From: Dillenia suffruticosa
Taxonomy: Eukaryota > Streptophyta > Magnoliopsida > Dilleniales > Dilleniaceae
Direction: 5' to 3'
Assembly: GCA_033439265.1 (NCBI GenBank)
Contig: JAVTVX010000013.1
Location: forward strand, 3,064,501-3,128,500
DNA length: 64,000 bases
Shown: one piece after another, positions 23,255 through 51,716 of the stretch
Layout: each line of letters begins with the position of its first letter
Position numbering within the stretch: position 1 is the stretch's first letter
Translations under genes and position numbers: made by a program
Notes under the pieces: model-generated
Database searches by the model: none
Told to the model about the DNA's origin: nothing
What the model saw: only the letters and a program-made list of their open reading frames with translations

Positions 23255-23648
23255 TTCTCCCTCCCTCCCTCTCGCTCTCTAGAATTTACCTAGAGAGAGA
23301 TGATGACGTCGAATGTGCAGACATGGCGGTGAGATCTTACCAGAGAGGGGAGAGAGAAAGAGAGTGAGAGAGGCGCTGTTTGTGTGTGAATTTGTGAATG
23401 GGTTGGCGTTTGGGATTGGGATTTCGGGTTTAATTGTGGAGTCAAGGTGGGGTTTATCTAGCACTTTATTAAGGAAAATTTTGGCTTCTTGAGCTCTTAT
23501 TATTGTCCTGATCTTCCATTTTATTTTCCCATTTAGCCCTCGTTACTATTTCGAATGTACCGCACAGCAATCACCTAACCCAACAAAAAAAAAAAAAAAA
23601 ACGGAAGAACCACATGAACGGTAATAACCCAAAATTTTTTTTTTTTTT
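23255..23648. other. C3H17-like promoter side
   Basis: The leader has CT tracts (23255-23282), then GA-rich sequence and two homopolymer runs (A-rich near 23585-23601, T-rich at 23635-23648). No TATA box is obvious. Confidence 0.35.
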
Positions 23649-24818
23649 AAATAACCTAAGACAGAAACTAATTCCAAAAATAACCCACCTTTATCACGTG
23701 TTGGAGTCGCGGCAAGATATGTCACGAATTGAACCCGCGATATGGCTACGTAGTGCAACATAGCTTTGTCGCGTCTTCAACACGCGACACACTATGTCGC
23801 GTCTTCAACACGCGACACACTATGTCGCGTCTTCAACACGCGACACACATTGTCGCGTCTTCAAGACGCGGCAAAGCCACGTGTCGCATCATGGTGCGTC
23901 GCGTCTTCAAAACGCGACAAAGCCACATGGCACGCCTTGGTGTACCATGTCTTTAAGACATGACACAGTGTTCACGAGCTGCACACGCGACAAGGTCGCG
24001 GGCTAAAACTCCGACGCGTGAACCATTTAGGCCTAACACTTGATTTAATTTAGAAAAACAGAAATCGAACTCTCAAAACATGTCGTAATTCGAACGCGTT
24101 GCGACAAGCTCTCACACACTAAACGGGCCAACGGGCCGCTTCCCGGGTCATTTGGATCTAATACTTAATTTAATTTAAGAAAACTAAAATCGAACTCTCT
24201 AAACATGTCGCAAGCTGAACGCGTTGTGAAAAACCTCACTCCATTAAGCGGGCCAACGGGCCGACCCGTGGGCCAATGGGGCCTAGCACTGTTGGCCCAC
24301 GGGTCGGCCCGTTGGCCCGCTTAGTGAAGTGAGGTTTTTCACAACGCATTCGAGTTGCGGCATATTTAGAGAGTCCGATTTTAGTTTTCCCAAATTAAAT
24401 TAAGTATTAGATCCAAATGACCCGCGAAGCGGCCCGTTGGCCCGCTTAGTGTGTGAGAGGTTGTCGCAACGCGTTCGAATTGCGGCATGTTTTGAGAGTT
24501 CGATTTCGATTTTTCCAAATTAAATCAAGTGTTAGGCCTAAATGGTTCACAGGTCGGCGTGTTGGCCCGCAACCTTGTCACGTGTGTAGCTCGTGAACAC
24601 TATGTCACGTCTTAAAGACGCGGCACACCAAGGCGCGCCACGTGGCTTTGCCGTGTCTTGAAGACGCGGAGCACCATGGCGCGACACGTGGCTTTGCCAC
24701 GTCTGATGTTGCGCCACGTGGCCATATCGCGGGTTGAACCCGCGGCATATCTCACCGTGACTCCAACACACAACAAAGGTGGGTTATTTTCGGAATTAGT
24801 TTCTGTTTTAGGTTATTT
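23649..24818. mobile_element. Foldback element, about 0.6-kb inverted repeat arms
   Basis: The two halves are reverse complements over almost their whole length, with the turning point near 24290 (gggccaacgggccgacccgtg against its complement). The outer ends are aaataacctaa-acagaaactaattcc and its complement at 24777-24818. Both are flanked by aaattttttttt, a possible target duplication. The element is far more GC-rich than its surroundings and has many CG dinucleotides. The left arm holds four 28-bp palindromic units; the right arm holds fewer, diverged versions. No transposase is encoded. Length and long terminal inverted repeats suggest a non-autonomous foldback or Mutator-like element, but I do not recognise the family. 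Confidence 0.75.
23767..23878. repeat. 28-bp tandem palindromic units inside the foldback element
   Basis: Units start at 23767, 23795, 23823 and 23851, each reading tgtcgcgtcttcaacacgcg and then acacacta or a variant. Within each unit gtcgcgt pairs with acgcgac around a 6-7-base loop. A looser relative follows at about 23897-23920. Confidence 0.9.
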
Positions 24819-24834
24819 TTAAATTTTTTTTTTT

Positions 24835-26395
24835 CGGGTTCGGTACATGTCTCAAGAACCAACGACAAAAACCAAATCAATAGCAATGCCATTGGCCATT
24901 CATTTTTACTATTTTAGGAATGAAAAATAAAGTAGTCTAAAATACGTTTTTGACCAAAAAAATAAACATCTATAATTTTTAATAATCATATTACCAGGAA
25001 AAAATGTAGAAAGTATCTATTTATAAGAGGGGTAAAATGGTAAATTGATTCTACCAACAAAAAGGGTAAATTGAATGCGGCAAGGATCAAAATTCCAGGA
25101 AAACTTTTTCTTAAACATCATTTTAAGGGACAAAAATGGTTTAAAGATTTTCGTCCTCCATGGTTTTTTTTAAAAAATTATTTTATAAGATAGAAAATTT
25201 TATAATTTCAATGCAGGTTATTTTATTTTATAATTAATTTTATATTTCTAAATCTACCACAATTTTCTTGTAGGGCAAGTCTAATTGGGCCGCATCGGAT
25301 GAAGGAGCCCAAATCCACTATCGGGTCCAACTTCACCCACGGTCTTAAAAAACCTTGCAACCCCAAATCAGCATCACTTTGGTTGCCATGACCCATTCCT
25401 TGCGAATATAAGTAAATTGCACGCGAACGAACTTTAAGTCGATACCATCTATTTCTTTTTTTCTCGAAAACGAATTCCAATATATTAAAAAAATATATAT
25501 TAATTGCACAGCCCATAAGAATGGTTTGAAACGAGAAAACCATGATTGATCTTAATCAAAAAAGCCAGACCTATTTTTGACAGGATACAAGAAAACCATG
25601 ATTAATCTCAATCAAATAGCCAGACCTATTTTTGACAGCTTCAACAAGCACATAAATAAGAATCCACCTTCAAGACCATCAATAAGATAAATATGATATC
25701 GATCAAACTTATTTTGATCGAGTAGTCGGACACTATACTCCCTTAACCAGAGGTCTCCGGTTTAAACTCTGAGAATAGAGAAAAATGATTTTAGAGAGTC
25801 AATCCCTATAATGAATTCCACGATATTTTGATCAGATTAGTCGGACGAAATTTAATACCAATAAGTGAAAACCAAAAAACAAAAAAAAGAGATAACATAT
25901 GATATCTTGTGTCATGTCTCCATGTTACGCACTCATCGCATGCACACCGAAAAACCCCGACTCAACCTGTATTTCTGATAAAAGCCTTATTTTACTTTTT
26001 TATTTTAATAAGAATTTGAATATGAGATTTTCAAAAATTTGTACCATTAGGTTGTATCTTGGAGGCCTTTTCTTACTTTCATGGATGCACACAAAGGAGA
26101 CCAAGGTCGTTGGTGCAAGCATTTGTCCTCTTCAACAAAATTATCATAGGCCACAGCAATTTAACCTCATAGGGCATGGGACGAGCTTGTCATAAGCCAA
26201 CACCATTTACAGGAAAACCTCAGAATTGAATCTTGAGCTCAAGTTGTGACACAAGCACCCTTGGCTCACTTTTCATACAAAGGGAATATAAACCGCAACA
26301 TGTGCTAACAAATTCCGCACAAGTTTTCCAACAGTGGTTATGGGCCTCCCCTGATTTTCTCTTGTGAATTAGCATAAAAAAGCCAGGAGAGTAAC
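24835..26395. other. Intergenic with a SINE and a short tandem duplication
   Basis: AT-rich sequence without a supported gene. A 54-bp-period duplication is at 25548-25640 (shared text agccagacctatttttgacag). A SINE is listed separately at 25701. Confidence 0.5.
25701..25890 (+). mobile_element. tRNA-derived SINE, family B
   Basis: A B-box-like ggtctccggtttaaactctg lies in the head, and the 3' part has the family text cagattagtcggacgaaatt followed by taatacc and an A-rich tail. Near-identical 15-16-bp repeats (gataa-atatgatatc) flank it at 25686-25700 and 25891-25906. It is a relative of the copies at 42.3-54.4 kb. Confidence 0.7.
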
Positions 26396-30642: not shown

Positions 30643-32533
30643 TGCAGAGTTGCAGTGTATCATCCAAGATCTTCCAAATCCTAAAACAAAATGGTTTATA
30701 GTGTCAGACACCCTGCGGATGAAATGTTTATTCATAGTATTTCTTAGTTTTATTTATATTAAAAGGAAGACCATTTGAAAATATTTGTACAATAGTTATA
30801 ATTTAAGTTGCAATTAAATAAAATAAATGATAAGTGATATCCACAAAATTACAAATTATATCTTAAACAAAATTAAAAAATCAATTACTGGGTCAGTATC
30901 ATCAGATAAGCTTGAAAGTTGTTATAGTTAATAAACTTCTATGATAAAGTTATCCATTTTAGGGTTTCATCAACAGCAGCACCACCACACCAACAACCGA
31001 ATCTTTTGGTTGCAGATCAAATTGCAGAAGCCACCTAACATAATGTTATCCTTTTTCAATGCAATTTAACTTCTTCGCACCGTCTGCCGATGGGTATGGT
31101 TGGCTGGGTTGGGCTCGACAAAATCTTTATGGAAGCTGGACTTGGGCCAAAGCCCAATGCCATGTTTAGTTTTAAAGCCCTAGCAAATAAGCCCATACCC
31201 TCTTTTAGTTAAAATAATATATATATATATATATATTCACATCATTCATATTTGGCTCGCTGACACGAATATTTGGATCTAATTGACACGATTATAAAAA
31301 ATAATTAGAAAAAAAAAATTGCTCACCCTCACGTAAATGGTTCAGTGATAGAATATAAATACATATTAAATAAAATCTCAAATTCAAATTTTGTGTACGG
31401 TAAAACTAAATGGTAAAAGAGTTTTATCCCTTAATTATTTAACCAAACTCGAATCAAATTTATTTGGATGATTTATTTTTTAAAAAGAAAAGAAAATCTA
31501 CCCCGGAGACCATGAATAAACTCCATCAACTTTTTTGTCTATTAATCTTCAATGTGCTAATTGAATATTTCCTTTCAAAAAAAAATTATAAATAAAATAC
31601 AGAAAAATGATCAATCCAATAAAACTTAGTTGTGGTGTGAAAAATAGGATTTGTTTTTCAAATGGATAAAATAAAAAACTTATCCATTATTTTGAAAATT
31701 AGAGATAATAAAATTTAAATCTTATATCTCTTTTTTTGTTACACAAATTCAAATTTAGAATCACCAACTTGGAGGAGATAAATCTCATATCTCCTGAATG
31801 TAGATAAGCAGATATTTTAAACTTTGACAAATTTTTAGAATCGGTGAAGTAGTTATATTTTGCGTTTGTATAGAAGTAGTTCTTCTTTTTTATTAACGTA
31901 AATTTTGAATTTGATTAGGGTATTTTTTTAACATAAATTTGAAAGTTTTCGTTGTATTTTTTTCTTTTTTATTTTGTCTTTGTATTTTACTTGAGGAAGG
32001 CGTCAATACAAGTTTCGTTTTTTTTTTCTTTTCTTTTCTTTGATAAACAATAGGAAAGCTAATGGAATTAAAACCCTTGAATTATCTTGAATTATCATGA
32101 TTTACATGACAAATTTTTAGATATAAGTTGAAATATTAAATTTTTTTTAAAAAAAATCATTATCACTTCAATTTTATTTTGAAATTCAATCAATTTCAAT
32201 CGTTGGTTTTTTTTTTCTTTGATAAACAATAGGAAAGCTAATGGAATTTCAACCCTTGAATTATCATGATTTACTGGTTGGCAAGGTGTTTGTATATGTA
32301 ATAAAATTTGAAAAAAAATAAAAAAAATAAACCAAAAGATTGAAATTGATTGAATTTCAAAATAAAATTGAAGTGATAATAAAAAATTTTCAAAAAAAAG
32401 TATTTAATATTTAAACTTATATCTAAAAATTTATCATTTTATCATCTTATCACGCTTTCGAATCATAATCTAACAGAGCTATCACTATTTTAATTAAACC
32501 AGAATTTTGATTCTCCTTAACCTTCTTTTCATT
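30643..32533. other. Intergenic, AT-rich, STP upstream region
   Basis: Contains an AT microsatellite (about 31214-31236), a region with scattered gggcc/aagccc text at 31100-31200, and the inverted repeat listed at 32039. No gene is supported. Confidence 0.45.
32039..32436. repeat. Inverted repeat (about 100-bp arms) overlapping a direct repeat, upstream of STP
   Basis: The left arm at 32108-32205 and right arm at 32331-32436 are reverse complements with a few mismatches (gattgaaattgattgaattt in one, its complement in the other). A 55-bp direct repeat starting tttgataaacaataggaaag lies at about 32039-32096 and 32218-32275. The arrangement looks like a small MITE or hairpin with a duplicated flank. 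It ends about 100 bases before the likely STP TATA box. Confidence 0.75.
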
Positions 32534-50431: not shown

Positions 50432-51716
50432 TCAAACTTGACTGCCTGAGATGAAGAAAGGAATAGATTTCAATGAGAAATAAAGCAAAAAGCGACGAAA
50501 AAGAAAATGATTAAGCTAAAAAGGCTTACTGTGTTCTCTTGGTGTTTTGCATTTGTGGCATTCCGTCCTGTGAGCATAGTTGTGTTCGCCGCAGCCCCAC
50601 CTGCAAAGTGTCCAAATTGCACCATCTTTATTAAATAAACCAAAAAATATGACAAACAAAAGCCTGCATCTATTTATTTTTTGTTTGGTCCAATGGTGAT
50701 TGAGCCATAAGCCTTATCAACAAACATCCCAACCCTGGGAGCATGTCCCTCCATAATTGCAGGACATATTCTTCTCCTGAATGAAATTGCCAGAAACTCT
50801 CCTGCAGTGTTTCTTCTACATTCCTCTCTTGCCTGTCTAGGCATGAACTATCTCGAAGCCATTCCTTAAGACAAAATGTACTATCCTCCATACTTGAGAA
50901 AAAGAAGGAAAAATCCACATTAGTGACTTCAATTCTTCGCTGCCCCTTTCTTTGGTAATTTCTTGTTAATCTTCATTTGAGGAAAAAAAAAAGCCACATT
51001 TCCTCAAAAGCTTTTGTTTTTAATAAGTGTAAGCTAGTTCAACTGTTAAAGACCTTTGAAGTAAGATTAACAAGAAATTACCAAAGAACGGGCAGCGAAG
51101 AATTGAAGTCACTAATGTGGATTTTTCCTTCTTTTTCTCAAGTATGGAGGATAGCACATTTTGTCTAAAGGAATGGCTTCAAGACAGTTCATGCCTAGAC
51201 AGGCAAGAGAGGAACGTAGAAGAAACACTGCAGGACAGTTTCTGGCAATTTCATTCAGGAGAAGAATATGTCCTGCAATTATGGAGGGACATGCTCCCTA
51301 GACATAATATTCTACTTTTGAAGACCATGCTCTTCTGCTCCTAGCTTTTTCCTCATCTTATGCTTTATTTGATATGCTCTTCATTATAACTGAGAGATAA
51401 ATTCGAACTCTTACCTAGTGCAAACCCAGTCACCAGTTTTCCATCCAGGTCTACCTCCACCATCTCCGTACCCACCAACAAAATCATTCTTCAAAGCACC
51501 ACACCTAAAGCAAGTAGGGCGGCTAGCAAAGTTATGTGCACCGCAGTGTGGTTGAGAGCAATACCAGTCACCGGCTAGCACTTCCGTTCTTTTAGATTTG
51601 TACGAGGAAACATCCATTCCACCATTTTTTGGATACGTGCATTTTTGGCACGTGTCCCTTCTCTTGAAATTCAAATGTTGGCAAGCGCTGCAGAGCCAGT
51701 CTCCATCCGAACTCAT
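50432..51716 (-). CDS. RanBP2/NZF-type zinc-finger protein, three fingers (At5g25490-like)
   Basis: Coding exons 51415-51716, 50530-50600 and 50432-50445 join in phase to give 128 residues. Three RanBP2-type fingers are visible: GDWLCSACQHLNF with TCQKC; GDWYCSQPHCGAHNF with TCFRC; and GDWVCTRWGCGEHNY with ECHKC, the last split by the first coding intron. The pattern W-x-C-x2-4-C-x3-N-x6-C-x2-C is complete in each, as in single-stranded RNA-binding members of the family. The end is a short REHSSQV tail. A leader intron is likely: an untranslated exon from about 52115 ends at 52019 (donor AAG|GTAATT) and the leader resumes at 51743 (acceptor TTGTAG). The intron between coding exons 1 and 2 (50601-51414) holds a large inverted duplication, listed separately. 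Confidence 0.9.
50737..51298. repeat. Young inverted duplication (237-bp arms, 89-base loop) in RanBP2-type intron
   Basis: Left arm 50737-50973 and right arm 51063-51298 are reverse complements with roughly seven differences (about 97% identity by eye). Each arm reads, away from the centre, as ttttccttctttttctcaag and then an open frame beginning MEDSTFCLKEWL, with SSCLDRQERNVEETLQ and GEEYVLQLWRDMLP. The polypyrimidine tract and AG before the open frame look like a copied intron-exon junction from another gene that I do not recognise. The host transcript would fold here into a long near-perfect hairpin. Confidence 0.95.

Follow-up and report, generated by a model that had tools for sequence, protein, structure and literature searches.

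The window, a 64,000-nt stretch of Dillenia suffruticosa DNA, carries on its minus strand a gene encoding RanBP2-type zinc fingers (Zn_ribbon_RanBP, PF00641), whose two coding exons flank what is apparently the gene's sole coding intron (Table 1). When the spliced protein was searched, 47 of 48 candidates matched at E up to 0.001; the named matches are all from plants, the best E-value belonging to Trema and the highest identity to Dillenia (80% over 79% of the query). It is within this intron, as a sequence-only reading had proposed, that a near-perfect inverted duplication resides. Alignment of the two arms confirmed the earlier estimate of about 237 bp at about 97% identity around an 89-base loop, with 229 of 237 aligned columns identical and one gap. 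Some 115 nt separate the hairpin from the donor and some 136 nt from the acceptor, and therefore the splice sites are untouched.

Table 1. Coordinates in the window of the host gene, the inverted duplication and the switch junctions
Feature	Position	Strand	Remarks
Coding exon 1, RanBP2-type zinc-finger gene	51415..51716	-	MSSDGDWLCSAC...GDWVCTR; translation; PF00641 above cut-off; plant homologues
Intron, 814 nt	50601..51414	-	GTAAGAG...TTTGCAG; read from sequence and open frames
Coding exon 2	50519..50600	-	WGCGEHNYAHRTECHKCKTPREHSKPF, then stop; PF00641 23.6 bits, below cut-off 27
Arm A, original copy	51063..51299	-	Collinear with the C35 intron (L005 4839-5085)
Loop, 89 nt	50974..51062	-	Reverse complement of C35 intron segment B (L005 5086-5167)
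Arm rc(A)	50737..50973	-	Inverted copy of arm A; runs on unbroken from the inverted loop
First switch junction	51062..51063	.	L005 5085 to 5167; about 2 nt (TT) junctional overlap
Second switch junction	50736..50737	.	L005 4840 to 5206; 0-1 nt overlap

A fold and a palindrome survey of the locus

The long double-stranded hairpin that had been predicted for the pre-mRNA was borne out by folding: the minus strand of 50737-51299, corresponding to gene-sense RNA, has a minimum free energy of -451.9 kcal/mol, as compared to -139.1 +/- 6.3 kcal/mol for 100 shuffles (z = -50). At four of the seven sites where the arms differ, a G-U pair is retained in the gene-sense RNA; in the antisense RNA this holds for none. 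We considered this as a possible pairing-preserving bias and dropped it, as four transitions would give the same outcome by chance once in 16 times and are too few to count as evidence.

Palindromes were surveyed over 264 kb, comprising the window, 80 kb of a paralogous block and 12 random 10-kb stretches from the same two contigs, the random part being small. In this sample, self-complementarity of at least 85% is confined to the intronic hairpin and a palindrome at 23821-24749. Weaker palindromes occur mostly in one surveyed stretch (L025), the first 4.7 kb of which holds several overlapping ones (65-79%) that are probably repeat arrays; another, in the window at 32106-32437, is 75% self-complementary over 345 columns.

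The sister intron carries the arm once

A search of the whole 596-Mb assembly with the 631-nt region returned only its own locus and C35:22718607-22718968. A query made of the right arm plus flanking sequence gave only the two arms and C35 at E up to 10. Since this DNA search skips very common words, the absence of further copies is not proven. The C35 match is the corresponding intron of a paralogue whose coding frames are open. This sister intron is 621 nt long (L005 4724-5344) as compared to 814 nt in the window gene, contains the arm once, and has no unusual fold (z = +0.83), with 16 of 20 shuffles equalling or surpassing it in stability. The surrounding C35 block is collinear with the window across about 49 kb (61776 to 12601), interrupted by gaps and by a few off-diagonal matches, and we take the two to be a whole-genome-duplication pair, for which one block is insufficient proof. 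Elsewhere in the block, window 36309-35665 has an inverted match (85%, 646 columns) besides its collinear one, representing a local inverted duplicate on C35.

Segment order and switch points

Read in gene sense, the C35 intron has the order A-B-C where the window has A-rc(B)-rc(A)-C, and therefore the loop is inverted as well as the second arm. Indeed, the BLAST path between the two loci is collinear, then inverted, then collinear again, with abutting breakpoints: window 52714-51063 corresponds to L005 3467-5085 forward, window 51064-50737 to L005 5169-4840 in reverse, and window 50737-49660 to L005 5204-6346 forward. At the second junction, 38 nt of C35 sequence (L005 5168-5205) are absent from the window. 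A three-layer alignment in which the switch points were chosen freely placed points 1 to 4 at L005 5085, 5167, 4840 and 5206, the pattern of a four-point template switch in which a nearby reverse-complement tract interrupts two collinear ones, and one such switch improved on the linear alignment by 276.8 nats.

For comparison, among 39 controls taken from this paralogous region the highest gain was 11.7 nats and the next 11.3, with the rest below 8.95, the threshold of a study of apes (PMC7954356); our own scoring differs from the published pairHMM and is not calibrated to that value, which two of the 39 controls exceed. Because only BLAST alignment pieces of at least 600 columns served as controls, the set leans to clean alignments. 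The two top-scoring blocks, which run downwards from window 59943 (571 nt) and 17623 (583 nt), respectively, are possibly small template switches in their own right.

The four points fall in the order 3-1-2-4, or 1-3-4-2 on the other strand. Whichever strand is read, point 2 (5167) falls past point 1 (5085), whereas an intra-strand switch would place it before point 1. Under the rule for inter-strand events given in PMC7954356, which concerns the order of switch points 1 and 2, the nascent strand is excluded as the template, because point 2 is beyond point 1 in both reading directions.

A single copying event as the probable origin

The rearranged order is present in the sequence itself, and a single event is its most economical reading, one that also accounts for the 38 absent nucleotides and for the continuity of the inverted loop with the inverted arm. 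We consider it very probable that, once the two blocks had diverged, the hairpin arose through one local inverted templated-copying event, by break-induced copying or by an inter-strand switch. In the gene-sense reading, synthesis would have proceeded through arm A, jumped about 82 nt ahead to the opposite strand, copied rc(B)-rc(A) backwards over about 326 nt, and resumed its original course about 38 nt past the jump target, so that A-B-C would have been replaced by A-rc(B)-rc(A)-C. This could have happened by an inter-strand switch or by break repair with microhomology-mediated inverted copying. Break repair of the latter kind has been proposed for microinversions (PMC8755829), and here it cannot be told apart from replication switching, since the product is the same.

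The duplication had been called recent, and the arms do differ at only 7 of 236 sites (Jukes-Cantor distance, JC, 0.030). Relative to C35, the right arm differs at 26 of 236 sites (JC 0.119) and the left arm at 30 of 236 (JC 0.139), and the duplication therefore looks younger than the paralogous split. For the loop and the flanking parts of the intron, the distance to C35 is 0.10-0.16. Taken at face value, these distances would put the event at roughly one quarter of the age of the split, with the wide error that seven changes bring and on the assumption of no gene conversion between the arms, which would give too young an apparent age. That arm-arm divergence is below the divergence between paralogues also supports the use of C35 as the ancestral state, with the change polarised by this paralogous block alone, standing in for the ancestor.

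Alternative origins

The same product could be reached in two steps, in which a fold-back (intra-strand) duplication would first yield A-B-rc(A)-C, and arm-arm recombination or template switching would later invert the loop. With a 38-nt deletion at the junction the outcome would be identical, and loop inversion within an existing hairpin has a precedent in MIR633 of the baboon (PMC8794818); similarly, inverted repeats flank 59 definite human-chimpanzee microinversions (PMC8755829). Nevertheless, this path requires two events plus a separate junctional deletion where one event explains the whole path, and we regard it as distinctly unlikely.

The sequence-only reading had instead seen in each arm the intron-exon boundary of a foreign gene, so that the hairpin would be an inverted duplication of part of a coding gene and a proto-MIRNA aimed at it. 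The elements it described are real: a polypyrimidine-AG-ATG string is present, followed by a frame (MEDSTFCLKEWL, the MEDST frame) that is open in both arms. Within that frame, five of the six arm-arm differences fall on third codon positions (binomial P 0.018), a bias noted post hoc at six sites and treated here as chance because the frame has no relative. What found no support is the foreign origin. On the right arm the string is antisense to the host intron, and the same sequence is found in the sister intron, where that frame contains five stops; differences between the right arm and C35 are spread 6/8/4 over codon positions 1/2/3. The protein search found no homologue of the arm frame, and no Pfam family exceeded its cut-off, the right-arm frame giving only SCRG1 (E 0.1, 13.2 bits against a cut-off of 27) and the left-arm frame nothing. 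We therefore rejected a foreign gene on the strength of the missing homologue and Pfam family and the five stops, and consider it very unlikely. Likewise, the silenced donor gene that had been suggested to exist elsewhere in the genome was not seen at the DNA level, where a search at E up to 10 matched only the two arms and the C35 intron, this paralogous intron being the only relative found in the assembly. Since no separate silenced parent gene appears at that level, the birth of a MIRNA by duplication of its target gene, as had been suggested for this locus, does not apply in its usual form.

Assemblies can contain artefactual palindromic joins, which here would be a fold-back chimera of long reads, and an assembly artefact had been named as something that would undo the observation. 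No sign of one was seen. The arms differ by seven substitutions and one indel; relative to C35, four substitutions are private to the left arm, two to the right arm, and one site is different in all three sequences, and collinearity with C35 resumes directly past the hairpin. An artefact is thus highly improbable.

Finally, MITE sizes include palindromes such as this one, yet insertion of a MITE or other terminal-inverted-repeat transposon has next to no likelihood, as arms and loop have their homologues at the corresponding position of the sister intron, and a search of the 596-Mb assembly that skips very common words found no further copy. The prediction of additional copies thus failed and a transposon was ruled out on copy number; the many-locus structure that had been listed as refuting did not appear, the hairpin matching only itself and the sister intron. 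The element around the palindrome at 23821-24749 served as a positive control: once 40 of 523 candidates had been scored, it had at least 240 matches. This 1.27-kb element (window 23600-24866) has a 929-nt core that matches its own reverse complement at about 87% identity. The collinear C35 block lacks the element, which has many relatives across the genome. It is a repeat family, and probably a transposon.

Small RNA potential

Once transcribed, the intron would be expected to fold into a 237-bp double-stranded RNA, which Dicer-like enzymes could cut into 21-, 22- and 24-nt siRNAs. Such putative siRNAs would act, if at all, on their own intron and weakly on that of the paralogue. Exact matches to the C35 intron amount to 9 of the 217 21-mers in each arm and 5 of the 214 24-mers, and few small RNAs would therefore be available for any trans effect on the paralogue. 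The hairpin matches no known MIRNA family: 11 matches to eight MIR families were all below the gathering score, the best being MIR5048 (80.6 of 160 bits). Three of the eight families match both strands, as is expected for a generic long stem. As a speculative proposal, to which we assign a low probability, a long-tract inter-strand switch might have turned an unstructured intron into a 237-bp hairpin in one step, with siRNAs acting on their own intron and, via identical 21-24-nt stretches, on the paralogous intron. This would constitute a target-free route by which hairpin RNA loci could be born in plants, and one that could link two duplicated genes.

Comparison with known systems

Long near-perfect hairpins provide the raw material for MIRNA and hpRNA loci, and their origin usually has to be inferred from copies that are older and decayed. 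In this case, because a likely 'before' state survives on the paralogous chromosome, the mutation can be followed at every base, with the intron passing from a fold that is nothing unusual in C35 to an extreme one in the window. De novo miRNAs formed by template switching are reportedly the subject of a 2023 PNAS paper.

Template switching has already been described as a source of hairpins at human microRNA loci and in rRNA genes (PMC8794818), and a gold-standard set of 1503 events in great apes, from a study aimed at short events, has a median tract of 12 nt and a maximum of 128 (PMC7954356). As in the four-point template-switch mutations described in these two sources, one reverse-complement copying event beside its source would have produced a perfect stem, along a path that is set by four switch points and favoured over linear alignment. 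In contrast to the great-ape set, the tract is 326 nt long. Unlike the four-point cases published there, this one has the order 3-1-2-4, a loop that would have been inverted at birth, a location in a plant intron, and a polarity taken from a paralogous block rather than from another species.

The locus also presents the arrangement of a sirtron or intronic hpRNA, that is, a long hairpin within the intron of an intact gene, as delimited in Table 1. Sirtrons are described as intron-derived, DCL2/3/4-dependent siRNAs (Chen et al. 2011, as cited in PMC5545994), and the likeness lies in a hairpin that is wholly intronic and clear of both splice sites as these are read from the sequence. Similarly, Mu killer of maize is an inverted duplication from which read-through transcription is believed to yield a hairpin RNA (PMC3440606). 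The source of Mu killer, however, is a transposon, which it silences in trans, whereas the source here is the host intron.

Collectively, the case suggests that some young plant hairpins may stem from local template switching and not from duplication of a target gene. The latter route, in which plant MIRNA genes are born by inverted duplication of the gene that they target, is one that Allen et al. are said to have described in 2004. The present hairpin resembles its products in being young, long and near-perfect, but the duplicated sequence is the host intron rather than a coding target gene, and an origin by template switching as opposed to target duplication changes the possible targets of any small RNAs.
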